A stretch of DNA of 43,302 nucleotides from contig CACDIK010000009.1 in assembly GCA_902553005.1 (NCBI GenBank), positions 1-43,302 of the forward strand. Reading direction: 5' to 3'. The notes beneath the pieces were generated by a model. That model did no database searches and was not told the DNA's origin. It worked only from the letters and a program-made list of their open reading frames with translations. Position 1 is the stretch's first letter. Each line of letters starts with the position of its first letter. The position numbers and the translations under genes are program-made. Below, in pieces: positions 29,882 through 43,192 of the stretch. The DNA comes from an uncultured Alphaproteobacteria bacterium. GTDB lineage: Bacteria; Pseudomonadota; Alphaproteobacteria; HIMB59; GCA-002718135.

Positions 29882-31204
29882 TTAATTTTTAATTTTTGAA
29901 GCAGGTTTACCATACTTTACATTTAAGCCACCATATCTTCTCACTCTAATATTGCATTGTTCTGCGTGACCAATAAATCCCTCAAGATAAGATAGTCTAG
30001 ATCCATATTCTCCAATAAGTTTAGCTGCTTCATCTGTCATAATTTTTTGATAGGTGTGAGTTTTAATAAACTTACCAACCCATAAACCGCCAGTGTATCT
30101 TCCAGCTTTTTTAGTAGGAAGAGTATGATTGGTGCCTATTACTTTATCACCATTAGCAACATTAGTTCTAGCTCCCAAAAATAGAGCTCCATAAGATGTC
30201 ATATTTTCTAAAAACCAATCATCTTTTTTTGTCATTACTTGTACGTGTTCTGATGCTATTTCATTTGCTTTAGATAACATCTCCTCATAGGTGTCACACA
30301 AAATAATTTCCCCGTAATCTTTCCAGCTTGTATTCGCTGTTTCTTTAGTAGGTAATATTTCTAAAATTCTATCAATCTCTTTAAATGTTTCTTCTGCAAG
30401 TTTTCTTGAGTTTGTTATCATAACAGCTGGAGAATTATATCCATGTTCAGCTTGTCCTAATAGATCAGTTGCACATATTTCACCATCAACAGTTTCATCA
30501 GCAATAACCATTGTTTCAGTTGGACCAGCAAATAAATCGATACCAACTCTGCCATACAATTGTCTTTTCGCTTCAGCAACAAATGCATTGCCAGGTCCAA
30601 CAAGCATATCAACTGGTTTAATCGTTTCTGTACCAATAGCCATTGCACCTACTCCTTGCATTCCTCCTAAAACATAAATTTCGTGAGCACCACCCATTTT
30701 CATTGCTGTAACAACTGCTGGATTTGGTTTACCTTTAAAAGGTGGAGTAGTGGCTACAATTCTTGGCACCTTAGCAACAGAAGCAGTAACAACTGACATA
30801 TGTGCAGAAGCCACCATTGGAAATTTACCGGCTGGAACATAGCAACCAACTGCTTGTACAGGTATATTCTTATGACCTAGAATAACACCTGGGTGCGTTT
30901 CTACTTCTAATTCACTTAAAGTTTTTAGTTGTGCTTCAGCAAATGTGCGCACTTGTTTCTGAGCAAATTTAATATCTTCTTTATCATCATCAGATACTTC
31001 ACTGATTAATTGATTAATTTGATCTTCATTTAACCTAAAACTATCTGGTGAATAGTTATCAAATTTTTGAGATAACTCTCTAATGTGTTTATCACCTTCT
31101 GACTCAATTTTACTTAATGTTTCCTCAACAATTTTTTTTACTTTATCATTATCTTCAGTTCTTTGTTTTTCATCTAATCCTTTTTTTAAATATTCAATTG
31201 CCAT
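29882..31204 (-). CDS. Histidinol-dehydrogenase-family enzyme, probably sulfopropanediol 3-dehydrogenase-like (HpsN)
   Basis: Zinc- and NAD-dependent enzyme that oxidises an alcohol to an acid in two steps. The zinc ligands of the HisD fold are retained: Gln251 and His254 (GQAEHG), Asp353 (NGDKVIG) and His413 (IGHAEQ). The catalytic Glu319-His320 pair is in SEHVQVM. The C-terminal block TLPTKKAGRYTGGLWVGKF differs from biosynthetic HisD, which has a VLPTGGAARF-type sequence, and resembles HpsN, which turns 2,3-dihydroxypropane-1-sulfonate into sulfolactate. No histidine biosynthesis gene is nearby. It lies 2 bases after a SnoaL-like gene and shares its promoter, so it is part of the catabolic regulon. 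Oxidation of another polyol is possible. Confidence 0.75.
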   Translation of the reverse strand: MAIEYLKKGLDEKQRTEDNDKVKKIVEETLSKIESEGDKHIRELSQKFDNYSPDSFRLNEDQINQLISEVSDDDKEDIKFAQKQVRTFAEAQLKTLSELEVETHPGVILGHKNIPVQAVGCYVPAGKFPMVASAHMSVVTASVAKVPRIVATTPPFKGKPNPAVVTAMKMGGAHEIYVLGGMQGVGAMAIGTETIKPVDMLVGPGNAFVAEAKRQLYGRVGIDLFAGPTETMVIADETVDGEICATDLLGQAEHGYNSPAVMITNSRKLAEETFKEIDRILEILPTKETANTSWKDYGEIILCDTYEEMLSKANEIASEHVQVMTKKDDWFLENMTSYGALFLGARTNVANGDKVIGTNHTLPTKKAGRYTGGLWVGKFIKTHTYQKIMTDEAAKLIGEYGSRLSYLEGFIGHAEQCNIRVRRYGGLNVKYGKPASKIKN

Positions 31205-31206
31205 AA

Positions 31207-32304
31207 TTATTTTTTATGAATTAATTTAAAGATATCAATACCTATTTGATCGAGTATATGTGCTATATCAATTGGTACCCAATTTTCCCTAATAAGTCCT
31301 TCATGATGTAAATAAAAATCCATTACTCTCATTGTTATTTTTTTATGAGTTGGTTCATACCCTAGCCAATCACTAGATCCATGGATACATTGGATACTAT
31401 GCCAACCCCCAGTCATTGAAAAATTTCCATCCCCAATTTCAATGTAATGACCAATTTTCCAATAATCTCTGTCCTTGAATGTAAGTCTAAATGGGAGTTG
31501 GTGATGATCAACAAAACCATCTAAACCTCTAGCTGTGCCTATACCACTTGGTCCATACCACATCATTTTTGGATGCCAATAATCTTGTTGAGGATGATTA
31601 ATTAATTTTTCTCTTATTTGATCTTTTGTAAGACCTGGTTCAGTCTCGGGTTTAATATTTAAACTTCTTTGCATAGTTAAATCTTGATTTAAAGATTGAA
31701 GAGATAATTCCTTATCTAAATTTTGATTATTTTCTCCATCACCTGTGATAGGAGATGGCCACATACCCTCTACACCAAGAGATTTATTAATGGGCCAATG
31801 ACCAGCCTGACGAATAAAATCTACAGTATCAATCAATGTGTAGGATTTTATTATTTTGTTATTAGTTATTTGATGTGCTTCACAAGTTCGAAGATGAATT
31901 GTTTTGTTTGTTGGTTTAACGCCCAACCATTCATTTGAAAATGTTCCAGTTAAATGACTAACAAATGAAACAAATACTTTATCTCTGAATGCTCCACCAA
32001 TAACTAGATTATTTCTTCTTTCAAGATCAGGAAATGCTTTCTTTAAAGGTATTAAATATTTATTTTTTATTTCTTCAATTCCCTTAATTTCATTAACTGG
32101 ATGAAAGCCATTAAGCTCTGCATCTTCATGATATAAATTTTCAAGATTATCTTCTAAATCTTCAATAGAACATTCAGCAATTTTATTTAATAAATTTTTA
32201 AAATATATTTTGTTTTCGATATTTATTTTTGGATCAAGATCTAAATGAATTATGTTTGAGTTACCTTTTTCACCTGTATCAAAGTTTTGTATTTTATTTG
32301 CCAT
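31207..32304 (-). CDS. SnoaL/NTF2-like protein, two-domain (copy 1)
   Basis: Soluble protein of 365 residues without a signal peptide, made of two halves that each look like a SnoaL-type alpha+beta barrel. The first half (about 40-175) includes NLYHEDAELNGFHPVNEIKG, LKKAFPDLERRNNL and WLGVKPTNKTIHLR. The second half (about 235-365) has KMMWYGPSGIGTARGLDG, WLGYEPTHKKITMRVMDFY and ENWVPIDIAHILDQIGID. The WLG-x-[KE]PT block and the final helix motif repeat between halves. The second half resembles that of the copy at 35504-36508. The fold covers polyketide cyclases, isomerases and hydrolases, so the reaction cannot be named. It is first in a two-gene operon with the HpsN-like gene, behind the shared half-site array. 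Confidence 0.75.
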   Translation of the reverse strand: MANKIQNFDTGEKGNSNIIHLDLDPKINIENKIYFKNLLNKIAECSIEDLEDNLENLYHEDAELNGFHPVNEIKGIEEIKNKYLIPLKKAFPDLERRNNLVIGGAFRDKVFVSFVSHLTGTFSNEWLGVKPTNKTIHLRTCEAHQITNNKIIKSYTLIDTVDFIRQAGHWPINKSLGVEGMWPSPITGDGENNQNLDKELSLQSLNQDLTMQRSLNIKPETEPGLTKDQIREKLINHPQQDYWHPKMMWYGPSGIGTARGLDGFVDHHQLPFRLTFKDRDYWKIGHYIEIGDGNFSMTGGWHSIQCIHGSSDWLGYEPTHKKITMRVMDFYLHHEGLIRENWVPIDIAHILDQIGIDIFKLIHKK

Positions 32305-32342
32305 AATAATTTAATAACACTATTGTTAAATAATAATTGATT

Positions 32343-32380
32343 TATTCATTATTTTGAATAATATTCAAAAAAAATGAATA
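32343..32380. promoter_or_regulatory. Operator array 1: alternating TTCA/TGAA half-sites in the divergent SnoaL/bicupin promoter
   Basis: TATTCA-N6-TGAATA (32343-32360) is followed by TATTCA-N7-TGAATA (32362-32380). The half-sites start at 32345, 32355, 32364 and 32375, about one helical turn apart. The middle forms a perfect 19-base palindrome, with 9-base arms around one base, at 32352-32370. The same arrangement occurs at 36545-36582 and 39192-39229. The likely ligand is the LacI-family regulator encoded at 38173-39171, which is an inference. Confidence 0.7.
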
Positions 32381-32395
32381 AAAGATCATAACAAT

Positions 32396-33367
32396 ATGTC
32401 AATTAATATTACAACTAGATTAGCAAAATTCGATGAACTTATTCCTAGTAATATTCCATTTGTTGAGGGAAAATTAAAAGGTCATCAAGATAGAAAAAAT
32501 TATTCAGTAATAGGCCCTGGTGTCAGTGAAGATGCTAAACAAAACGTTAAAATAGCTGAAGAACATGGTTTTAATATTGGTGCGGTAAGCGCTGCTCCAA
32601 TGAATGGTTCTGGTTTACATAGTCATACAACTGCAGAAGTTTTTATCATTCATTCAGGCGCTTGGCGTTTTTACTGGGGCGTTGATGGCACAGAGGGAGA
32701 AGTAATCCTAAAAAAAGGTGATATTGCTTCTTTTCCTACAAACATGTTCAGAGGTTTTCAAAATGTAAGTGATGAAGAGGCGCTAATGTTTGTTGTGTTA
32801 GGTGAAAATGATCCAGGTGTTATTACTTGGACGCCTAAACTTTTAAAAGATGCAAAAGAATCTGGCATGGTATTAATGAATGATAATTCTTTAATCGACA
32901 CAGAGAAACAGAAAATAACAGATGAGACTAAAATTATTCAACCACTAAAAGATAATGAATTAGAGAGTTTCGACCATTACTCTTCAGAAGACATAGAAAA
33001 ATTTGTTATTCGATTTAATGATAAAGATAAATACTTTGTTGATGATGATCACTATCAATCTAATAAAATTATTAACTATATTGATCAGTTTCAAATTCAT
33101 GATAAATCTTTTACACCAAATATACCGCATTCAACAGGTTTTAGCCTTTCACTTCTGAATGGCAAGAGTGCTCATATACATAAATACATACTAAAGAAAT
33201 CAGAAGTGTATCATTGTTTATCTGGCGAATGGGAAATAGATTGTGATGGAGATAAAGTAGTAATTAAAGAAAAAGATACCTTTTCAGTACCAAAAAATTC
33301 ACTACGTTCAATCAGGCAGATAAGTGATCATGATGGTAATTTATTTATAATACGGCAAACTAATTAA
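32396..33367 (+). CDS. Bicupin protein
   Basis: Two cupin barrels in 323 residues. The first has the metal motif HSHTTAEVFIIHSG with His75, His77 and Glu81. The second has HIHKYILKKSEVYHCLSG with His260, His262 and Glu270. In both domains the usual fourth ligand, a histidine in the second cupin motif, appears replaced by arginine (Arg119 after FPTNMF, Arg304 after VPKNSL). A metal site with three protein ligands per barrel is therefore likely. Bicupins include dioxygenases, isomerases and sugar-binding proteins. The function here is unknown. It is the first gene of a rightward operon with a SnoaL-like gene (11 bases later) and the MetE-like gene. Confidence 0.8.
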   Translation: MSINITTRLAKFDELIPSNIPFVEGKLKGHQDRKNYSVIGPGVSEDAKQNVKIAEEHGFNIGAVSAAPMNGSGLHSHTTAEVFIIHSGAWRFYWGVDGTEGEVILKKGDIASFPTNMFRGFQNVSDEEALMFVVLGENDPGVITWTPKLLKDAKESGMVLMNDNSLIDTEKQKITDETKIIQPLKDNELESFDHYSSEDIEKFVIRFNDKDKYFVDDDHYQSNKIINYIDQFQIHDKSFTPNIPHSTGFSLSLLNGKSAHIHKYILKKSEVYHCLSGEWEIDCDGDKVVIKEKDTFSVPKNSLRSIRQISDHDGNLFIIRQTN

Positions 33368-33378
33368 ATATTAATTAA

Positions 33379-34371
33379 ATGAAAGGATTTGATGCACAAT
33401 TCAAAGATTTTCCTGATTATATTTTAAAGATCACATATCAAATTTGGGAAAACAATGATGTTGAAGCAATAAGAGATTATTATGCTGATATTCCAAATAT
33501 AAGCCTCCCCACACCTACAAGATCTCCATCTGGAGTAATTTATGGTGCAGACCCAGTAATTGAAAGTACCTATGCTAGTAAAAAACTATTTCCCGACAGA
33601 ACACTTTTAGGTGAAGATGTAATTTGGACAGGAAATGATGATGAGGGATATTTTTCATCACATCGCATTTTATCAACCTCTACTCATTCTGTTGATGGGA
33701 TGTATGGGAAAGCGACAGGAAAAAAACTATATTACCGAACTATTGCTGATTGTGCATGCATGAATAATCAAGTTTATGATGAGTGGCTTGTGAGAGATCA
33801 AGGAGCAATTGTGAGACAAATTGGAATTGACCCCAAGAAATTTGCAAGTAATCTAATTAAAGATGAAGGCGGTCCTGAAAAAGCTAGTAAACCCTTTGAT
33901 GAAAATACACCTGTTAAATCAATTTATAAATCTCCTGTATTAGCATCTGGTAACTTTGGAGAATTATATGCAAATATCTTAACTTCTATTATGAACATTA
34001 ATTTAGAGAAAACAATAAATGATAATTTTGACAGAGCCATACAGCAATTTCAACCAGGAGGAAATACTCACTATGGTAGAGATGAGGTAATAAAATTTTG
34101 GAAACAATTAAGAGATGCTTTTCCTAACGCATTGTTCTCAGTCGAGCACATTGCTTTTACTGAAGAAAAATATGAACCTAAAAAAGCTTCAGTTCGTTGG
34201 TCTATGGTAGGTAAACATGAAGGGGATGGTCTTTTTGGGAAAGCCTCTAATTCGAAAATTTATATAATGGGTATTAATCATGTTGAATTTGGAGAAAGAG
34301 GTATTAAAAATGAATGGGTTCTCTATGATGAAACTATGATCTGGAAACAGATTTTATTAAAAACAGGTTAA
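33379..34371 (+). CDS. SnoaL/NTF2-like protein, two-domain (copy 2)
   Basis: A 330-residue cytoplasmic protein with two SnoaL-like halves. The N terminus, MKGFDAQFKDFPDYILKITY, is nearly repeated in the copy at 36616-37755 (MKGFENQYKNIIDYIVRITY). The first half includes YYADIPNISLPTPTRSP and LFPDRTLLGEDVIWTG. The second includes REDV-type helix text YGRDEVIKFWKQLRDAFPNA and SVRWSMVGKHEGDGLFGKAS. Both halves show the acidic Tyr/Asp-rich pocket pattern of the fold, but no known catalytic set can be assigned. It sits between the bicupin and MetE-like genes with gaps of 11 and 4 bases. Confidence 0.75.
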   Translation: MKGFDAQFKDFPDYILKITYQIWENNDVEAIRDYYADIPNISLPTPTRSPSGVIYGADPVIESTYASKKLFPDRTLLGEDVIWTGNDDEGYFSSHRILSTSTHSVDGMYGKATGKKLYYRTIADCACMNNQVYDEWLVRDQGAIVRQIGIDPKKFASNLIKDEGGPEKASKPFDENTPVKSIYKSPVLASGNFGELYANILTSIMNINLEKTINDNFDRAIQQFQPGGNTHYGRDEVIKFWKQLRDAFPNALFSVEHIAFTEEKYEPKKASVRWSMVGKHEGDGLFGKASNSKIYIMGINHVEFGERGIKNEWVLYDETMIWKQILLKTG

Positions 34372-34375
34372 TTTA

Positions 34376-35503
34376 ATGTCTAATATTTTGACAACACATG
34401 TTGGAAGCCTTCCTAGATCAAAAGAACTTTCAGATTTTTTATTTGCAAAAGATAAAGGAGAGAAATTTAGTAAAAGTAGTTTTGATGAAGTATTAAGAAA
34501 TAATGTGGAAAGTGTTGTTAAGAGACAACTTGATGTTGGAATTGATTTTGTCAGTGATGGGGAGATGAGTAAAATTAGCTACGCTACATATATTAAAGAC
34601 AGAATTGATGGATTCTCAGGTGAAAGCGAAAGAAGAGCACCTGCTGACCTTGACGATTTTCCAGAATATAAAGAAAAGATTGCTAAAAGTGGTGGCACAC
34701 CAACTTATACCAGGCCATGTTGCACAAACGAATTAAAAGTAAAAGATGAAACTTCTCTTCTACAGGATATAAATAACTTTAAAAATTCACTTGATAAACT
34801 AAATCACAGACATGCATTTATGAACTCAGCATCACCTGGCGTCATAAATGTTTTTATGCCAAATAAATTTTATAGTACTGAAGATGAATATTTGGATAAA
34901 TTATCTAATATTATGGCTAAAGAATATGAGGTTATAACAAAATCAAATATTCATGTTCAGCTAGATTGCCCAGACCTTGCTTTAGCAAGACACATGAATT
35001 TCAAAAATTTATCTGAGGATGAATTTATTAAACGTGCAGAACTACAAATTGAATGTATGAACTCAGCATTATCTAATGTTGATATTGAACAAACTAGAAT
35101 GCATATATGTTGGGGCAATTATGAAGGACCCCACACACACGATATTGCTCTAGAGAAAATATTACCTATAATTTTGAAATCAAAGATAAAATACTTTCTA
35201 ATTGAGTCTTCTAATCCTAGGCACGCACATGAATGGAAAGTTTTTCAAGATATAAAGTTACCAAAAGATAAAGTCTTAGTACCTGGCGTAATTGATTCAA
35301 CATCTAATTTTGTTGAACATCCAGAAGTTGTAGCAGATAGATTAATTCAGTTTTCTACAGTAATTCCAAAAGATCAATTAATGGCAGGGACAGATTGTGG
35401 TTTTAGTACATTTGCTGGTTTTGGAAAAATTGATGAAAAAATTTGTTATGAAAAGCTTCATGCATTAGTTGAAGGTACTAAACTTGCCTCAAAAGTTATC
35501 TAA
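34376..35503 (+). CDS. MetE-like zinc-dependent methyl/alkyl transferase (C-terminal-domain type)
   Basis: A 375-residue protein matching only the catalytic barrel of cobalamin-independent methionine synthase. The start TTHVGSLPRSKEL (about 6-18) is typical. The zinc ligands are visible as His243 and Cys245 (MHICWGN), Glu277 (LIESSNP) and Cys341 (GTDCGFSTF). The N-terminal barrel of full MetE, needed for the polyglutamyl folate donor, is absent. Relatives of this size include archaeal-type core MetE, epoxyalkane:coenzyme M transferase and poorly known thiol methyltransferases. Its presence in a catabolic operon suggests removal of a methyl or alkyl group from the substrate onto a thiol, which is an inference. 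Its stop abuts that of the convergent SnoaL gene. Confidence 0.85.
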   Translation: MSNILTTHVGSLPRSKELSDFLFAKDKGEKFSKSSFDEVLRNNVESVVKRQLDVGIDFVSDGEMSKISYATYIKDRIDGFSGESERRAPADLDDFPEYKEKIAKSGGTPTYTRPCCTNELKVKDETSLLQDINNFKNSLDKLNHRHAFMNSASPGVINVFMPNKFYSTEDEYLDKLSNIMAKEYEVITKSNIHVQLDCPDLALARHMNFKNLSEDEFIKRAELQIECMNSALSNVDIEQTRMHICWGNYEGPHTHDIALEKILPIILKSKIKYFLIESSNPRHAHEWKVFQDIKLPKDKVLVPGVIDSTSNFVEHPEVVADRLIQFSTVIPKDQLMAGTDCGFSTFAGFGKIDEKICYEKLHALVEGTKLASKVI

Positions 35504-36508
35504 TTACTGATTTAAAAATTTTGCTCTTTCTAAAAGATCCACTCCTAGTTTTTTTAAAAAATGTAAATGATCAATAAAGATCCAGTTTTCAGCTAATTTA
35601 TCTCCATCTCTTCGATATAAATCTACAACTCTCATTTCTGATTCAATATCACTTGCATTTGTTAATCCTAAATATTCTCCTTTAGGTTTCATAATTAAAT
35701 TTGGCCAACCAAACCAACCTCCAAGATCATCTTCAGAGCTACTAAGTATGTGTCCATTGAAACGAACAAACTCTAAACCATCTTGAAATGGTTTTGTGTG
35801 ACCTTTTTGATAGCCATCAATAGTATAAGAAGCTCCTATACCTCCTGGTCCCCACCAAATCATGTCATTATGCCAATCTAATTCTAATTCTTCTTTATAA
35901 GATTGCATTTTGGAACCTTTAACAAGTCGATCGCGCATTCTGTGAATTAAATCTAATGTTTTTTGACTTTCACTTTCATTAGAAATATCAAATTTTAAAC
36001 CTTTATGATTCATTGGTCCAGGTGTTACACAAACAAGACCTGTAGATTCAGGAATTATAGAAAGACCTAGTTGCTGCATTAAATTCATTACATCTAAAAA
36101 AATAGCTCCTTCAGTAATTTTGTTATTTTCCACTTTGTAAAATTCTGCAAATCTTAATAAAATTGATTTATTATTTGGTTTAAGGCCTACAAACGGCTTA
36201 TTGAAAACACCCATGAAATGACCCATACTGGAGATCCATTTCCCTTTATTTTTATCTAGCGAATTTATCCCAGCATAAAATATATCTAATCGACGTTGTA
36301 TAGGTGAAAATGAATCTTTAATTGGTTTCCAAAGATTATTAGCAACAAGATCTATACTACCTAGTTCGTTGAATGGGTGGGTACATTTCATACTAAAATC
36401 TTCTGATGCGTATTTGGATATAACTTCAGATAATGAATCAATGTTACAACTATCTATCTCATTTGAATAATCTAATACTAATTTTTTTTCTGCTTGGAGA
36501 TCAGTCAT
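35504..36508 (-). CDS. SnoaL/NTF2-like protein, two-domain (copy 3)
   Basis: A 334-residue protein with the same layout as copy 1: first half about 15-155 with HPFNELGSIDLVANNLWKPI and FVGLKPNNKSILLRFAEFY, second half about 205-330 with DMIWWGPGGIGASYTIDG, YLGLTNASDIESEMRVVDLY and ENWIFIDHLHFLKKLGVDLL. The MxWxGPxGIG motif is shared with copy 1 and, as MVWHGPPGFG, with the single-domain gene at 37752. It is transcribed alone from the divergent promoter at 36509-36615, which carries operator array 2. No signal peptide or membrane segment is visible. The reaction is unknown. Confidence 0.75.
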   Translation of the reverse strand: MTDLQAEKKLVLDYSNEIDSCNIDSLSEVISKYASEDFSMKCTHPFNELGSIDLVANNLWKPIKDSFSPIQRRLDIFYAGINSLDKNKGKWISSMGHFMGVFNKPFVGLKPNNKSILLRFAEFYKVENNKITEGAIFLDVMNLMQQLGLSIIPESTGLVCVTPGPMNHKGLKFDISNESESQKTLDLIHRMRDRLVKGSKMQSYKEELELDWHNDMIWWGPGGIGASYTIDGYQKGHTKPFQDGLEFVRFNGHILSSSEDDLGGWFGWPNLIMKPKGEYLGLTNASDIESEMRVVDLYRRDGDKLAENWIFIDHLHFLKKLGVDLLERAKFLNQ

Positions 36509-36544
36509 TTCATTTTGATTATATTAATAAACTAAAAAAGACAA

Positions 36545-36582
36545 TATTCATTTTTTTGAATAAAATTTCATTGCTTTGAAAT
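36545..36582. promoter_or_regulatory. Operator array 2: alternating TTCA/TGAA half-sites between two SnoaL-like genes
   Basis: TATTCA-N6-TGAATA (36545-36562) is followed by ATTTCA-N6-TGAAAT (36565-36582). Both are perfect inverted repeats with centres exactly 20 bases apart. The half-sites TTCA, TGAA, TTCA, TGAA begin at 36547, 36557, 36567 and 36577, an exact 10-base period. The site lies 37 bases from the leftward start and 34 from the rightward one, so it can control both genes. Confidence 0.72.
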
Positions 36583-36615
36583 ATTTTTAAATGTATCTCA
36601 TTACAAATACAAATT

Positions 36616-37755
36616 ATGAAATTTAATAAAATTACAGATAAAAGACCAGAAGCCCTTCATGATAATCATATGCCTAAGAGTTATGATATTTCATTAAAAG
36701 AATATGGAGGTGGAGGAACAGCAAAATCATTAAATCCAAAACCAAAAAAACTTAAACATCAATCGATGAAGGGGTTTGAAAATCAGTATAAAAATATAAT
36801 CGATTATATTGTAAGGATTACGTATCAAATCTGGGAAGAAAAAAATATTGGCTACATTTATGACACCTACAGTAAAGATTGCAGAGTTTGGGATGAATTT
36901 GGTTTACAATCTGGATCTGAAAAAATTGTAGCTGATACTATACATACAAACAACGCTTTTCCAGATATTCGATTATTTGCAGATGAAGTTATTTGGGCAG
37001 GAGATGAAAATGTAAGTTTTCATACTTCGCATAGAACAATTATTACTGGAACAAATACTGGATTTAGCAAATTTTCCAAACCAACTGGTAGAAAAGTAAG
37101 ATTATTTTGTATTGCGAATTGTGTAGCCAAAAATAATGAAATTTATTACGAAAATGTTGTCTACGATACAGCAGGTTTAATTAAACAACTCGGATTAGAT
37201 TTAAATCAGGTTGCCAAGCAACTTGTTGATGAAGGAATTGCAGGACCCTATGCCCCTCATTTTAAAAACTCTAAACCAACAAGAAATATTACTAAATTAA
37301 AACCAATTAGTTTTGATATTCCAGATAAAATTACAAATGTAAGAGAGTTTGTTCATGCAGTTTATGATACAATTTGGAATAGACGAAACTTTTCTGCAAT
37401 AAATAAAGCATACTCGAATAAGGTAGAATTTGAAGGTTCAACTGGTCGTAAATTTAAAGGAGTTTTGCAATTAAGAAAATTTATAATTTCACTTTTAGCT
37501 TCGTTTCCTGATCTTGCATTTAGTATTGAAGATTTATACTGGATGGGAAATACAAAAGACGGATATTTAGTATCGGTTCGTTGGGGTGCTTTAGGAACTC
37601 ATAAAGGTAATGGCTCATATGGTCAACCATCTAATAGAGAAGTGTATTTGTGGGGAATCACTCAATGGGAAATTAAAAATAATAAAATTATTAAAGAGTG
37701 GACGGGTTTTAATGAGCTTGCAATACTAATGCAAATTTTAGGAGATAAAAAATGA
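36616..37755 (+). CDS. SnoaL/NTF2-like protein, two-domain with N-terminal extension (copy 4)
   Basis: A 379-residue paralogue of copy 2. Residues from 51 (MKGFENQYKN) align by eye with the start of copy 2, and the C-terminal half shares SVRWGALGTHKGNGSYGQPS. The first 50 residues, basic and glycine-containing (KEYGGGGTAKS), are extra. The ATG at 36766 could be an alternative start but has no evident ribosome-binding site, and the extension reads like real protein, so the upstream start is kept. The second half has REF-type helix text VREFVHAVYDTIWNRRNFSA and a FPDLAFSIEDLYWMG segment typical of SnoaL folds. It overlaps the next gene by 4 bases. Confidence 0.75.
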   Translation: MKFNKITDKRPEALHDNHMPKSYDISLKEYGGGGTAKSLNPKPKKLKHQSMKGFENQYKNIIDYIVRITYQIWEEKNIGYIYDTYSKDCRVWDEFGLQSGSEKIVADTIHTNNAFPDIRLFADEVIWAGDENVSFHTSHRTIITGTNTGFSKFSKPTGRKVRLFCIANCVAKNNEIYYENVVYDTAGLIKQLGLDLNQVAKQLVDEGIAGPYAPHFKNSKPTRNITKLKPISFDIPDKITNVREFVHAVYDTIWNRRNFSAINKAYSNKVEFEGSTGRKFKGVLQLRKFIISLLASFPDLAFSIEDLYWMGNTKDGYLVSVRWGALGTHKGNGSYGQPSNREVYLWGITQWEIKNNKIIKEWTGFNELAILMQILGDKK

Positions 37756-38171
37756 CTTTAGATGAAAGTAAAAAATTATTAGCTAATATGTATGATGCAC
37801 TTAATGCTCAAGATCTAGAAGCACAGCATAAGTACTGGCATGATGATATGGTTTGGCACGGTCCTCCAGGTTTTGGTGATATTCATGGTATAGAAAATTT
37901 TAAATATAAAGTTCTAAAACCTTTTTATGAAGCATTTCCAGATTATCATGTAAAAAATGATATTGTGGTTGCTGAAGGTGAGTGGATTAGTGCAACGGGA
38001 TTTCTTACAGGCACACATAGTGGAACATATCTTGGAGTGGAGCCAACAGGGAAATCTATCAAAATGCAATTTTCAGATTTTTGGACCATTAAAGATGGAA
38101 AATTTTTAGATAATTACGTTATGGTAGATAATCATGGTGTCTTCGAACAGATGGGATTAAAATTTAAGTAA
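37752..38171 (+). CDS. SnoaL/NTF2-like protein, single domain (copy 5)
   Basis: A compact 139-residue SnoaL-type protein (ester cyclase family layout): an N-terminal helix LLANMYDALNAQDLEA, the pocket motif MVWHGPPGFGDIHG (about 34-47), FYEAFPDYHVKNDIVVAEGE, and a last part with GTYLGVEPTGKSIKMQFSDF and a GVFEQMGLKF end. These are the same landmarks seen in the halves of the two-domain copies, so it may represent the ancestral unit. Its ATG overlaps the stop of copy 4 (4 bases), making translation coupled and a complex between the two plausible. Confidence 0.85.
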   Translation: MTLDESKKLLANMYDALNAQDLEAQHKYWHDDMVWHGPPGFGDIHGIENFKYKVLKPFYEAFPDYHVKNDIVVAEGEWISATGFLTGTHSGTYLGVEPTGKSIKMQFSDFWTIKDGKFLDNYVMVDNHGVFEQMGLKFK

Positions 38172-38172
38172 A

Positions 38173-39171
38173 TTATTTTGTAGTTTTTCTTTTTATAAGT
38201 CTTCCCTGTACAATATGATTTATAGGTTCAAAATCTGGATCTTTAATATATTCATTTATTAATTGAGTTGCTATTTTTGACATTTGTCTAATAGGTTGTC
38301 TGACAGTTGTAAGGTTATATGATCCCCAAGCTGACATTGATATATCGTCATAACCAATAATTTCTAATTGTGAAGGTGTTTTTAATGAAGTATTTTTTTT
38401 AATATAATCTAAACATCCGAATGCCATTGTGTCATCAGCACAAAATATTGCACTTATCTTTTTATTGAAAATTTTTTCTGTTGCTTGATATCCACCTTCG
38501 TAAGTAAAAAAACCTTTTTCAATATTTAATTTAATTTTTTTATTATTTTTAAGATAATTTTTAAAACCTTTGCATCGCTCATCACTTACAAAAGATCCTT
38601 TTGGCCCTTCAATCAGGCCAATATTTTTATGATTTTTCTTTGTAAAATATTCTGCAACTAATTCTCCTCCGTTACGATGATCACATGCAACAGAACTTAT
38701 CGTTGGTATATTCCAACTTCTATTATAAGCAATAAATTGTATTCTTTTTTGATTGCAATCTTCGACAAATTTATCAGTAGGTTTTGTTGCTGATATTATT
38801 GCAATGAGTTTTTCTTTTAAGTATGGCAGTATTAATTTTTCATCTAATTCCTCTCCATCATCAGTTGTAATTAATAAAATTCTAAAGCCTCCATTCCTTA
38901 GTGCTTCATGTAACTCTATTAAAACTTCTGGATAATATCTGCTTGTAACGTAAGGTAAAATGACAGCAACTAATCCGCTATCACCATTAGATATTGAATT
39001 AGAAGTTATATTAGGTGCTTTATATTTTAATTTCCTAGCTGCTTCCAAGACTCTCAATTTTGTTCTACTAGAAATGCTAGCACCTTTTGTAAAACATCTA
39101 GAAACAGCTGATTGGGATACTCCTGCTAGTTTTGCTACGTCCTGTGATGTCGCAGTCTTTTTAAAACTCAT
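38173..39171 (-). CDS. LacI-family transcriptional regulator
   Basis: A 332-residue repressor. The N-terminal helix-turn-helix is at about 8-30 (SQDVAKLAGVSQSAVSRCFT), followed by the hinge region ending KLKYKAPN, where the usual hinge alanine and leucine pattern is only partly kept. The periplasmic-binding-protein-like sensor domain runs from about 65 (GLVAVILPYVTSRYYPEVL), with ACDHRNGGELVAEYF, IFCADDTMAFG and EIIGYDDISMSAWGSYNLTTVRQP. Such proteins usually sense a sugar-like effector. It lies divergent from the sugar-type ABC transporter, with operator array 3 in between, and probably controls itself, the transporter and the two other array-bearing promoters. Confidence 0.93.
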   Translation of the reverse strand: MSFKKTATSQDVAKLAGVSQSAVSRCFTKGASISSRTKLRVLEAARKLKYKAPNITSNSISNGDSGLVAVILPYVTSRYYPEVLIELHEALRNGGFRILLITTDDGEELDEKLILPYLKEKLIAIISATKPTDKFVEDCNQKRIQFIAYNRSWNIPTISSVACDHRNGGELVAEYFTKKNHKNIGLIEGPKGSFVSDERCKGFKNYLKNNKKIKLNIEKGFFTYEGGYQATEKIFNKKISAIFCADDTMAFGCLDYIKKNTSLKTPSQLEIIGYDDISMSAWGSYNLTTVRQPIRQMSKIATQLINEYIKDPDFEPINHIVQGRLIKRKTTK

Positions 39172-39300: not shown

Positions 39301-40536
39301 ATGAAAAAACTATTAATAGCTCTATTGTTCACATTTGTTAGCACAAGTGCATATGCCGGTGGGCACTCACCTTGTGGAGTAACAGATGGATCAATAAAGA
39401 TTCTAGCAAACGAATTTACAACATACAGAATTTTCATGGATGAAGTAAAAAGTTGTGCAGGACCTGATGCAGATTTTTCTGTAACACATTCCGTTGATCA
39501 TAATAAATTACAAGTTGCAGCACTTTCAGCTAACCCAGCTGAATTCTCTGCTAAACTTGTAACTAATGGTTCAATTACAACTTTAATGAATGATAACTTA
39601 ATTCGTCCACTTGATGATTTAGTTGCTAAATACGGAAGTGCATTACAAGACAATCAAAAAATCGTGATTGATGGTAAAATTTATGCAGTAGCATTTATGG
39701 CTAATGCTCAACATCTTTGGTACAGAGAAAGTATTCTTAATGATTTAGGTATTGCAGTTCCTTCAACATATGAAGAGGTAATTGCAGCTGCAGAAAAAAT
39801 TAAAGCTTCTGGTAAAATGGCTAACCCATATGCTGGTGCTTTCAAATCTGGATGGAACTTAGGTCAAGAGTTTGTAAACATGTACCTTGGTCACGGAGGT
39901 GATTTCTTTAAAGCTGGAACAGCTGAAGTTAGTGTAAATAACGCTAAAGGTGTAGCTGCTCTTAACATGCTTAAAAGATTAACTGAAGTAAGTAACCCTG
40001 ATTTCTTAACTCAAGATACAAATGCAGTTAAAGAAGAATGGGAGTCTGGTAATGTAGCATTAATGCACATCTGGAATTCAGGTGCAGCTTCATTGTTAGA
40101 TGATGAAGGTGATCAAGCAATTAAAGCTGATACTAGATTGGCTCCTTCTCCATCCGTAGGTGGTGGAAGTAAACCAGCAACAACTCTATGGTGGGATGGA
40201 TTTGGAATTGCAACAAATACTTCTGATGAAAATGCAGAAGCATCTTTTAGAGCTCTTTTAGGTGCAGCAACTTCAACAGAAATGGCAAATGCTAATCCAA
40301 ATGCAACAATTTGGTTGATTGATGGTTATTCTCCTGGAGATACAGCAGGACCAGTTGTTGACGCTGCTAATAGAGGTGCAACACCTTACCCAAGCTTACC
40401 ATACATGAGTCTATTACATGGTGCTTTGAGTACAGAACTTGTTGAATTCCTTCAAGGAAATGAGTCTGCTGAAAAAGCATTAGCGGATGTAGAAGCTGCT
40501 TATGTAGCAAAAGCTACTGAGCAAGGTTTTCTATAA
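39301..40536 (+). CDS. Sugar-type ABC transporter substrate-binding protein (family 1)
   Basis: Periplasmic protein of 411 residues that captures the substrate for the two permeases downstream. A signal peptide (MKKLLIALLFTFVSTSAYA, cleavage after Ala19) is clear. Family 1 features follow: NPAEFSAKLVTNGSITTLMNDNLIRPLDDLV, IVIDGKIYAVAFMANAQHLWYRESILNDLGIAVPSTYEEVIAAA, and a late WWDGFGIATNTSDENAEA block. Two cysteines in the mature part (Cys25 and Cys56) could pair. The start is preceded by AAGGGG at good distance. The substrate is not identifiable, but sugars, sugar acids, polyols or sulfonated analogues suit the family. Confidence 0.9.
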   Translation: MKKLLIALLFTFVSTSAYAGGHSPCGVTDGSIKILANEFTTYRIFMDEVKSCAGPDADFSVTHSVDHNKLQVAALSANPAEFSAKLVTNGSITTLMNDNLIRPLDDLVAKYGSALQDNQKIVIDGKIYAVAFMANAQHLWYRESILNDLGIAVPSTYEEVIAAAEKIKASGKMANPYAGAFKSGWNLGQEFVNMYLGHGGDFFKAGTAEVSVNNAKGVAALNMLKRLTEVSNPDFLTQDTNAVKEEWESGNVALMHIWNSGAASLLDDEGDQAIKADTRLAPSPSVGGGSKPATTLWWDGFGIATNTSDENAEASFRALLGAATSTEMANANPNATIWLIDGYSPGDTAGPVVDAANRGATPYPSLPYMSLLHGALSTELVEFLQGNESAEKALADVEAAYVAKATEQGFL

Positions 40537-40556: not shown

Positions 40557-40590
40557 AAAGTGGAACATTATTATGTTCCACTTTTTTTTT
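40557..40590 (+). terminator. Intrinsic terminator between binding-protein and permease genes
   Basis: AAAGTGGAACAT and ATGTTCCACTTT form a perfect 12-base-pair stem with a 4-base loop (TATT), followed by a T-run to 40590. It lies 20 bases after the binding-protein stop and 12 before the permease start, in the same operon. Partial termination here would leave the binding-protein message in excess over the membrane genes. Confidence 0.88.
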
Positions 40591-40602: not shown

Positions 40603-41631
40603 ATGCCCCACAGAACATTTTTTTGGTTCTTCTTTCCAAGTGGATTGGCAATGCTATTATTTATTGGCCTTCCAATTATTTCTAGTTTTTTTCAATCTCT
40701 TCATATTGAGCCTGAACAAATTTTAATGGAAGTAGAAAAATGTGATCCATTTGGATGTAAAACAGAAACAAAAGTTGATATTGAAGCAACAACAAAATTA
40801 CAAGAAGAACAACCTCTTGGAAGATTTAATGGTTTAGGAACATACGTCGATAGAAACCATTTGGCTTTTGATGAAATTAAAGAAGCTTGGACTAATTCCT
40901 CATCGATACCAGAGTTTACGGATATCTTACTCAATTTACCTTTTTACAAAGCACTTTTATTTACACTTACATTTTGTTTTGCCGTTACACCACCAGTTGT
41001 AGTTTTAGGTTTCATCGTTGCTTTAAGTGTAAATACAATTACAAAAAGTTTAAAAGGTCCAACCATTTTTGGTGTTATACTGCCTATGATTGTAACACCA
41101 TTGATTGGATCTCTGGTTTTATTTTGGATGATAGACGCTAAGGGAATATTAGGTTCATTTATTCAATTCTTATTTGATGATCCAAACCTATCACTAAAGT
41201 CCTCAAGTCAATTGACTTGGATTACTCTTATTATTTATGGGATTTGGCACAATACACCATTTGCTTTTGTTGTCTTTTATGCTGCATTACAAACTGTTCC
41301 TCAAGATCCAATTGAAGCAGCGATCATAGATGGCGCTTCAAGATATGAACGAGTCAGACACATTGTTATTCCACATCTTTATCCGGTAGCAACATTTATT
41401 ATATTAATTTGTCTAATGGATAATTTTAGGGTTCTTGAGCCAATAATTGGGTTCGCTGCTGAAGGAGTTGCTCAATCACTTTCTTGGATGATTTATAACG
41501 ACTTAAGAAGTGAAAACAAAATGTTATTTGGGTCTGCAGGAGCAACATCTATGTTAACTATCATTGGTGTAGCAATTCTACTAACACCAGTACTTATAAG
41601 AACATGGAGAGAATTTAGGACAGAAAGATAA
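40603..41631 (+). CDS. Sugar-type ABC transporter permease (MalF/UgpA-like)
   Basis: Inner-membrane subunit, 342 residues, with about six membrane segments. The first segment (about 12-32) is followed by an unusually long periplasmic loop (about 35-108) that is acidic and contains a close cysteine pair, Cys47 and Cys52. Five more segments follow from about 115. The cytoplasmic EAA loop, DPIEAAIIDGASRYERVRHI (about 231-250), contacts the ATPase. No ATPase gene lies between here and the right edge except possibly beyond it. The next permease starts 1 base after the stop. Confidence 0.92.
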   Translation: MPHRTFFWFFFPSGLAMLLFIGLPIISSFFQSLHIEPEQILMEVEKCDPFGCKTETKVDIEATTKLQEEQPLGRFNGLGTYVDRNHLAFDEIKEAWTNSSSIPEFTDILLNLPFYKALLFTLTFCFAVTPPVVVLGFIVALSVNTITKSLKGPTIFGVILPMIVTPLIGSLVLFWMIDAKGILGSFIQFLFDDPNLSLKSSSQLTWITLIIYGIWHNTPFAFVVFYAALQTVPQDPIEAAIIDGASRYERVRHIVIPHLYPVATFIILICLMDNFRVLEPIIGFAAEGVAQSLSWMIYNDLRSENKMLFGSAGATSMLTIIGVAILLTPVLIRTWREFRTER

Positions 41632-41632
41632 T

Positions 41633-42514
41633 ATGGAATCAAAAATTAATAGATACTCAAAACAACTAATTTTAATAAATAGTTTTTTTATTCTTGCTTG
41701 GTTAATTGTTTCCGTGTTTCCTTTTATTTGGACCTTTTGGGGATCATTTAAAGTAAAAGCTGATTTTTTCTCAAGAGCTGATTGGATGTTTGCAGTCACA
41801 GGAGTTAATACTTTAATTGAAACAGGAGATACTTCTACAGTCAAGGCTTATGTAGAGTCTTGGACTGAAGGTGAATTTTGGAAAGCAACAATGAATACAA
41901 TTATTATTACTGTTTCAGTTGTTACGATCTCTTTATTTTTAGGAACATTAGGTGCTTATGCCTTGTCTAGATCGACATATAAATATACTTTTTGGATTTT
42001 AATAGCTGCCTTGATTTTTAGAGCGATGCCACACATTACATTAGTTTCAGGTTATCTGTTTCCCTTTTTCCAATTGAACGTTTGGGGCATACTTCCAACT
42101 ACCATAATTGTTTTAGTTGCAATCAATCAACCCTTTACATTATGGTTACTTTATTCCTTCTTTAAAACAGTTCCTAAAGAGTTAGATGAAAGCGCACTAA
42201 TTGATGGCTGTTCATATTTTCAAGCGTTTCGATTTGTTATAATGCCTGTTATGTGGCCTGGAGTTGTTACAGCAGGTTTATTCAGTATGATGTTAGCCTA
42301 TAATGATTTTACAGTTACTTCACTTCTTTTAAATCAGCAGAATTATACTATGGTTCCTAAAATTAATGCTTATTTGGGCACAATTGAACATAGTGGAAAT
42401 TATATGTGGGCAGTCTCAAGTGTTGTTTCAGCAACAGCACCACTTTTTATGATAATTATGTTTTTCCAAAGACAATTAATAAGTGGTTTAACTGCTGGAG
42501 CAGTAAAAGGTTAA
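41633..42514 (+). CDS. Sugar-type ABC transporter permease (MalG/UgpE-like)
   Basis: Second inner-membrane subunit, 293 residues. The first membrane segment is at about 14-34, a periplasmic stretch of about 50 residues follows, then five segments. The EAA loop is KELDESALIDGCSYFQAFRF (about 182-201). The conserved FRAMPHITLVSGYLFPFF region and the C-terminal FFQRQLISGLTAGAVKG tail are typical of MalG-type permeases. It pairs with the preceding permease. The ATP-binding subunit is not in the window and is probably encoded just downstream of the right edge. Confidence 0.93.
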   Translation: MESKINRYSKQLILINSFFILAWLIVSVFPFIWTFWGSFKVKADFFSRADWMFAVTGVNTLIETGDTSTVKAYVESWTEGEFWKATMNTIIITVSVVTISLFLGTLGAYALSRSTYKYTFWILIAALIFRAMPHITLVSGYLFPFFQLNVWGILPTTIIVLVAINQPFTLWLLYSFFKTVPKELDESALIDGCSYFQAFRFVIMPVMWPGVVTAGLFSMMLAYNDFTVTSLLLNQQNYTMVPKINAYLGTIEHSGNYMWAVSSVVSATAPLFMIIMFFQRQLISGLTAGAVKG

Positions 42515-42532: not shown

Positions 42533-43192
42533 ATGAAATATAAAGCACTTCTATTTGGATCTATTGGGACACTAATTGAATCTTCTAACATTCAACGTAA
42601 CTCATTTAACGAAGCTTTTAAAGAAGCTGGACTTGATTGGTATTGGGATGAGCAAGACTATAAAATTTTGTTAAAAAAATCTGGTGGGACAAAAAGGGTA
42701 GAAGATTTTGCTGAAAAAAATAATACTAATGTTAACGCTTCACAAATTAGAAATAGAAAAACAGAAATCTTTAGCTCATTCATTATTCAGAACAAACAAA
42801 AATTAAGAAAGAGCGTTGATGAAATAATTAAGTATACAAAAGATAATAATATTAAACTTGCTTTCTCAACTTCTACAACTTTAAATAATGTCGATGCAGT
42901 ATTTGAAAGTCTTTCAGGTCAAATTTCAAAAGAAGAATTTGAATTCATTGGTAATAAATCATTGGTTAAAAATGAAAAACCACATCCAGAAATTTATAAA
43001 GTTACATTAGATAAATTAAATTTACAACCAGAAGATTGTCTTGCAATAGAGGATACTGAAGAAAGTAGTAATTCTGCTGTAAACGCTGGAATTAAATGTA
43101 TTGGGTTTCCAGGTGATTACCACCTAGAAGATAATTTTCAAATGTGCATCAAAAAAATGAATTTATTAGATCAATCTATTTTTTCATTGTAA
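42533..43192 (+). CDS. HAD-like hydrolase family protein lacking the catalytic aspartates
   Basis: A 219-residue protein with the layout of a beta-phosphoglucomutase/phosphoglycolate phosphatase-type HAD enzyme, including an alpha-helical cap (about 15-90). Motif I, normally FDxDGTL with the nucleophile and acid/base aspartates, reads FGSIGTL: Gly9 replaces the nucleophile and Ile11 the second aspartate. The other motifs remain: Ser/Thr in FSTST (motif II), the lysine in KNEKPHPEIY (motif III) and the acidic pair in AIEDTEESSNSAVNAG (motif IV). The codons around the change are clean, with no frameshift. Phosphatase activity by the normal mechanism is therefore unlikely; a binding or regulatory role, or a different chemistry, is possible. 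It lies 18 bases after the permease gene in the same operon. Confidence 0.85.
   Translation: MKYKALLFGSIGTLIESSNIQRNSFNEAFKEAGLDWYWDEQDYKILLKKSGGTKRVEDFAEKNNTNVNASQIRNRKTEIFSSFIIQNKQKLRKSVDEIIKYTKDNNIKLAFSTSTTLNNVDAVFESLSGQISKEEFEFIGNKSLVKNEKPHPEIYKVTLDKLNLQPEDCLAIEDTEESSNSAVNAGIKCIGFPGDYHLEDNFQMCIKKMNLLDQSIFSL

Follow-up and report, generated by a model that had tools for sequence, protein, structure and literature searches.

A HAD-fold gene with GSIG at motif I lies between ABC permease and SDR genes

The window, by which we refer to the whole stretch of DNA analysed (43,302 nucleotides, an entire contig, C9), ends in a run of ABC transporter genes followed by a gene for a protein of the HAD superfamily and by the start of an SDR dehydrogenase gene (Table 1). 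The HAD reading frame begins 18 bases past the stop codon of the preceding permease gene, with an ATG at 42533, and its own stop codon ends at 43192; the ATG of the SDR gene lies 13 bases past that end. On the far side of the divergent LacI-type regulator gene, the cluster at 29882-38171 comprises genes for five SnoaL-like proteins, a cupin, a MetE-like protein and an HpsN-like HisD protein, and has relatives in other Alphaproteobacteria. The HisD protein resembles a sulfonate-diol dehydrogenase in sequence; the MetE-like protein and the substrate-binding protein of the transporter are only distantly near known solved chains. Pfam assigned no sugar kinase among the reading frames between 29882 and 43192 and the SDR. 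A hairpin of 12 pairs followed by a T run (40557-40584) is located between the binding-protein and permease genes, and by eye hairpins with other stems occupy the same place in distinct SAR11-type gaps, those of L070 and L072 lacking a clear T run; the hairpin in the window would fit the production of more binding protein than permease.

Table 1. Features of the window around the HAD gene
Feature	Position	Strand	Basis or remark
HisD-family dehydrogenase	29882-31204	-	nearest solved relative sulfopropanediol 3-dehydrogenase (HpsN)
SnoaL-like protein	31207-32304	-	
Cupin	32396-33367	+	
SnoaL-like protein	33379-34371	+	
MetE-like (Meth_synt_2) protein	34376-35503	+	
SnoaL-like protein	35504-36508	-	
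SnoaL-like protein	36616-37755	+	
SnoaL-like protein	37752-38171	+	
LacI-type regulator, divergent	38173-39171	-	
ABC substrate-binding protein, family 1	39301-40536	+	SBP_bac_1
ABC permease 1	40603-41631	+	BPD_transp_1
ABC permease 2, directly upstream of the HAD gene in a presumed operon	41633-42514	+	BPD_transp_1
219-aa HAD-fold protein, candidate pseudo-phosphatase with GSIG in motif I	42533-43192	+	HAD_2, AlphaFold, CbbY 4uar match
Codons 9-12, Gly-Ser-Ile-Gly replacing Asp-x-Asp-Gly	42557-42568	+	residues invariant in 71 SAR11-type genes, codon changes all synonymous
SDR dehydrogenase, gene start, cut by contig end	43206-43302	+	comparison with L032

Direct translation of the 219-residue frame gives FGSIGTL (F8-G9-S10-I11-G12-T13-L14) at motif I, with both catalytic aspartates gone, as an initial annotation had reported. 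Its further statements that motifs II-IV are intact and the frame undamaged were equally borne out, as T113 (motif II S/T), K149 (motif III) and E173-D174 (motif IV) are in place and no stop codon interrupts the frame. Of the features by which HAD phosphotransferases and hydrolases are recognised, the motif I DxD with its nucleophilic aspartate is thus replaced by GSIG, and the motif II S/T, the motif III lysine and the motif IV acidic pair are present.

The protein scores 72.2 bits against Pfam HAD_2 (cut-off 23.8), and among the 21 NCBIfam models listed for it only the general HAD-IA model, TIGR01509, is matched above its cut-off. It is similar to beta-phosphoglucomutase across most of its length (TIGR02009, 79.1 bits), but lacks both motif I aspartates and falls below the curated thresholds of both beta-phosphoglucomutase models (153.35 bits for TIGR02009; 59.4 bits against 189.4 for TIGR01990). 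An AlphaFold model based on 22 sequences (pLDDT 93.7, pTM 0.89) finds its closest solved structures in Rhodobacter CbbY (4uar/4uat/4uau, Z 28.4-28.6, with 4uar the nearest at 28.6), represented by the apo form and by the D10N mutant with xylulose-1,5-bisphosphate. The HAD_2 match and the model, which matches both CbbY and beta-phosphoglucomutase, place the protein in the subfamily I fold with a Rossmann-type core and a helical cap. With the xylulose-1,5-bisphosphate phosphatase CbbY of Rhodobacter sphaeroides (PDB 4UAR/4UAT/4UAU) the model superimposes at 2.3-2.4 Å over 218 residues at 32% identity, and the two have in common the motif II, III and IV residues, the cap Arg and Lys, W36, W38 and GG51-52; D8, D10, E17 and H20 of CbbY, however, correspond to G, I, S and Q in the GSIG protein. 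None of the loci seen has the GSIG gene in an operon of the Calvin cycle, which is where the CbbY-like gene of Mesorhizobium huakuii stands.

GxxG-type proteins form a single clade within the CbbY-like set

Among 101 genomes, comprising the window's own and its near relatives, 65 contained a match to the HAD protein at E 1e-20, and motif I was read in part of them. A named-contig search yielded 78 loci from the best 80 of 84 matches, of which 75 were read, leaving out the short partials L107-L109; GSIG stands at motif I in 71 of these 75, far more than chance would give, and DxD in four (L102, L103, L105, L106). Apart from one Rhodobacteraceae MAG (L101), the GSIG loci are SAR11-type (70 loci), a label for which we rely on their relatedness to the genome of the window and on a single record, L087, that bears the name Pelagibacteraceae. 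The 70 include L080 (NYXO01000073.1), which is deposited under a Euryarchaeota MAG and is probably a mis-binned contig.

The class sample of 385 genomes contained matches at E 1e-15 in 37, and motif I was read in 36: eight carry GSIG (G000, G260, G062, G063, G203, G208, G312, G351) and 28 carry DxD, typically in the form FDVDGTLAETEE, the same as in CbbY. G408 (locus L284) was left out of motif I typing, as the N-terminal part of its related HAD match is unreadable in every frame. At E 1e-30, 99 of the 299 genomes of the phylum sample matched, and the typed subset of 29 loci (L204-L232) consists of 26 DxD and three GxIG loci, all three from family f24. We infer that f24 is Rhodobacteraceae-like from locus L249, which opens with the same letters as the solved Rhodobacter sphaeroides CbbY. 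For this family 248 genomes were sampled. Their matches listed at E 1e-30, 67 in number and spread over 58 genomes, were all typed, resulting in 38 DxD proteins, one NADG protein and 28 proteins that we refer to as GxxG-type (20 with G[SA][IV]G, the rest with GSLQ, GSLG, GGIG, GGMG or AGIG); the GxxG-type genes occur in 23 of the 248 genomes. The GSIG clade also includes WP_187432052.1 from plasmid pROLI81 of Roseobacter litoralis (42.8% identity to the window protein), which is annotated as a HAD-IA family hydrolase and whose gene adjoins a TrkH-family gene outside the SnoaL/MetE-like cluster. On viral contigs, none of 12 pattern matches was confirmed as a relative.

For the phylogenetic tree, 94 rows were chosen for spread (51 GxxG-type, 43 DxD or NADG), and two versions were made, one with motif I removed and one with columns 9-12, 18, 21 and 80 removed. 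In both versions the 51 GxxG-type rows fall on one side of one branch, which has support 100/99 in the careful tree with the seven columns removed and is also present in 100% of 200 bootstrap trees of a bootstrap that was not fully settled. GxxG-type proteins are therefore one clade apart from the DxD proteins and are accounted for by one change, which makes repeated independent loss of the aspartates superfluous for the sampled rows. Taking L105 and L106 as outsiders, the clade falls inside the CbbY-like set. From these sequences we judge it to be an old family that marine Alphaproteobacteria actively maintain and that branched off from sugar-bisphosphate phosphatases of the CbbY type. The SAR11-type rows make up a set of 15, and the next supported set holds 16 rows (95/83, seven columns removed). 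The sixteenth row, as seen in the tree with motif I removed, is a Roseobacter litoralis plasmid copy (L151), and because it joins the SAR11-type rows it hints at a transfer between Rhodobacterales and SAR11 in either direction. The NADG protein (L319, G891; FNADG at motif I), in which the nucleophile is lost and the second Asp retained, groups with the DxD proteins on a long branch.

Residues for chemistry are switched and predicted binding residues are kept

We defined switch positions as those at which each clade conserves a letter of its own that differs from the other's, taking S and T as one letter. There are six (9, 10, 11, 18, 21 and 80), and they comprise both aspartates, the residue between them, the equivalents of CbbY E17 and H20, and a Tyr/Phe. 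In CbbY we take D8 to be the nucleophile, D10 the acid/base, and E17 and H20 to belong to the active-site loop; by homology with beta-phosphoglucomutase and CbbY, the lost residues presumably form and protonate the phospho-aspartate, and the kept residues presumably hold phosphate and metal. In the main GxxG-type clade (44 rows, median identity 36%) the positions of E17 and H20 are occupied by the new residues S18 (44/44) and Q21 (42/44). Retained in the same rows are the motif II S/T (43/44), the motif III Lys (K149, 43/44), the motif IV Glu (E173, 43/44) and Asp (D174, 44/44), the cap Arg (R55, 43/44) and the cap Lys (K76, 42/44). When the 219 columns are ranked by conservation, the top 31 include every one of these six ligand-shell residues, which were picked from knowledge of the HAD fold (p 5e-6). 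Since the chemistry residues have been switched and the binding-shell residues retained, the loss of phospho-aspartate chemistry is, judged by sequence, close to certain, and anion binding is probably preserved. The retained cap Arg and Lys together with the motif III Lys fit phosphate or another anion, for example sulfonate or carboxylate. They would thus suit the sensor of a phosphorylated intermediate that the initial annotation gave as an example, a candidate role against which we set the lack of a sugar kinase gene in the window's cluster and the position of nearly all fetched Rhodobacteraceae-like copies outside the cluster.

A subclade of seven rows with GGIG, GGMG or AGIG (L281, L282, L283, L312, L313, L314, L318) diverges from this pattern: the Lys, the Glu, the cap Arg and the cap Lys are also gone, and the motif IV Asp is found in six of seven. 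One of its members, L312, has a LysE-type gene upstream and a gene for an ScfR-type regulator downstream.

The conservation of S18 and Q21 would also suit an enzyme of other chemistry. The HAD pocket would then have become that of, say, an isomerase or a non-hydrolytic lyase, working with the Lys, the Glu-Asp pair and the new Ser18/Gln21. S18 may be a candidate catalytic group, K149, E173 and D174 have been retained, and in SAR11 the gene resides in a catabolic gene cluster. Against this, the switch positions have brought in no new conserved acid, Cys or His, and the Ser of GSIG gives way to Ala in 6 of the 44 main-clade rows and to Gly in the seven-row subclade, so that it is not a conserved nucleophile; Ser10 as a new nucleophile is ruled out on these grounds. 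We consider a change of chemistry unlikely.

Among the 71 SAR11-type genes, the window's included, dN/dS, computed over the 1494 pairs whose dS is 0.1-1, has a median of 0.095 and a maximum of 0.195, and all variation in the codons of G9, S10, I11 and G12 is synonymous. A decaying or passenger gene could be suspected from the loss of the catalytic residues and from the presence of the cluster without the HAD in other genomes. For the SAR11-type genes, however, a dN/dS of about 0.1 and the codon conservation, with GSIG invariant under free synonymous change and the frames intact, rule out decay, and the single clade with its conserved pocket residues contributes to making this explanation extremely improbable. 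The single clade and the purifying selection on the SAR11-type genes lend good support to the selected non-phosphatase function that the initial annotation had proposed, as does the loss of both aspartates and two partner residues from a protein that retains its binding shell. Because the chemistry residues are lost in a maintained family, the hydrolase names given to GxxG-type proteins in databases are probably wrong.

The HAD-SDR pair is constant in SAR11-type loci and the tie to the cluster is loose elsewhere

In all 70 SAR11-type loci the SDR gene lies directly 3' of the HAD gene. The upstream binding protein, where present in the fetched DNA, is 39-100% identical to that of the window; the HAD-SDR pair is therefore constant and the transporter cassette variable. 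Two or more of the SnoaL, HisD, cupin and MetE types are encoded within 8.5 kb in 59 of the 71 GSIG loci. In the other 12 the locus ends no more than about 4.3 kb from the HAD gene, and each of them has two or more genes of the wider cluster set. A homologue with normal DxD in the same context, named in the initial annotation as evidence that would speak against its proposal, takes the place of the GSIG protein in none of the 71 loci. The one DxD HAD seen in such a SAR11-type cluster (L104:2079-2738) adjoins the MetE-like gene and is a different HAD, standing beside the GSIG gene of that cluster.

Six order-level loci were fetched. The HAD gene is beside SDR-HisD-SnoaL-cupin-MetE in L144, L146 and L148 and beside the SDR gene near the contig end in L147; in L143 and L145 it is away from the cluster, adjoining a GDPD gene. 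The SDR thus adjoins the HAD gene in four of the six, which, together with its constancy in SAR11, could mean that the HAD protein serves another protein, such as the SDR, as its structural or allosteric partner and keeps its own pocket for fold stability only. That the GGIG/GGMG/AGIG subclade tolerates the loss of binding residues agrees with such a role, but the retention of six ligand-shell residues at the low median identity of the main clade is hard to explain by stability alone, and nearly all Rhodobacteraceae-like loci fetched have no SDR relative beside the HAD. We therefore regard a purely structural role as improbable.

Neighbouring genes in the wider set of loci were named by reading sequences (RND, EamA, SRPBCC, mnmE, pccB) or, for RraA, alpha/beta hydrolase, carB, aspS, GDPD, LysE, ScfR and DUF2461, by checking one protein each. 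Wide flanks were fetched for 27 f24 loci (L261-L283, L285, L312-L314). The HAD gene is inside the cluster in one of them, L273; in L277 and L279, where the HAD was not placed by the script, no cluster gene was seen beside it. It lies near carB and/or aspS in eight f24 loci (L262, L264, L267, L270, L271, L272, L278, L285) and near an RND-type gene in L142, L263 and L277, with a DUF2461 gene also in L142 and L263. Within family f110, the HAD gene belongs to the cluster in L141 but not in L140; in locus L139 too it stands apart.

To relate the HAD to the cluster at the level of genomes, we used the MetE-like gene. It is present (E 1e-60) in 71 of the 385 class genomes, including all eight with GSIG, four of which belong to the window's own taxonomic order. 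In f24 (E 1e-100) it occurs in 20 of 23 GxxG-type genomes, in 7 of 37 DxD genomes and in 97 of 248 overall, a co-occurrence with the GxxG-type HAD of p about 1e-6, uncorrected for kinship. From the class sample 20 MetE regions were fetched, in addition to those of the window, G063 and G208, in which the HAD is in the cluster; 13 of the 20 contain the cluster, and none of the 20 has a HAD beside it. Adding the three, the cluster is found in 16 of 23 regions and the HAD in the cluster in 3 of 23, and nine of the 16 cluster regions come from genomes without an identified GxxG-type HAD (the untyped G408 among them). The GxxG-type protein goes with the cluster, and the cluster does not need the GxxG-type protein. 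The tie between the two is loose, because nearly all Rhodobacteraceae-like copies fetched lie outside the cluster and nine of 16 clusters stem from genomes in which no GxxG-type HAD was identified.

Discussion

HAD pseudo-phosphatases, which have lost the nucleophile and kept the fold, are known as a kind; in a search of the open-licence literature, covering titles and the starts of abstracts, this bacterial clade and its gene cluster were not named. The reading we favour, at a probability of roughly 60%, is that the GxxG-type protein is such a pseudo-phosphatase, having lost the chemical machinery and kept the fold and the residues predicted to hold an anion, for which a binding role would be the most economical hypothesis. 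Its ancestor would have been a CbbY-type sugar-bisphosphate phosphatase of the HAD superfamily, from which the GxxG-type clade split off with loss of the nucleophile D8, the acid/base D10 and the accompanying E17 and H20 (CbbY numbering). The remaining fold, with the motif II S/T, the motif III Lys, the motif IV Glu-Asp and the cap Arg and Lys, should hold an anionic ligand, and the protein would still bind a small molecule bearing a phosphate (or a sulfonate or carboxylate) group. In SAR11, ligand binding may serve the uptake and catabolic genes next to it; most likely the protein would signal, or pass the ligand on, to a partner, for instance the SDR encoded beside it. We count against this pseudo-phosphatase reading the loose tie to the cluster, the seven-row subclade without most of the binding residues and the window cluster without a sugar kinase.

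Going further, the former CbbY phosphatases of SAR11 and Rhodobacterales, as a widespread and old family, might act as soluble metabolite receptors: a compound carrying phosphate or sulfonate would occupy the dead site, and its presence would be reported to the enzymes of uptake and catabolism, in SAR11 via the SDR. We put this forward as a tentative proposal, which may well not hold; to our knowledge, a metabolite-receptor role has been described for none of the proteins on this HAD branch.

One protein of the GxxG-type clade is publicly named a hydrolase even though it is without the residue on which the mechanism rests. With its chemistry residues switched and its ligand residues kept, the family offers a ready test of how a phosphatase may turn into a binding protein, and the GxxG-type clade would provide a handle on the SnoaL/MetE-like/HpsN-like catabolic cluster.
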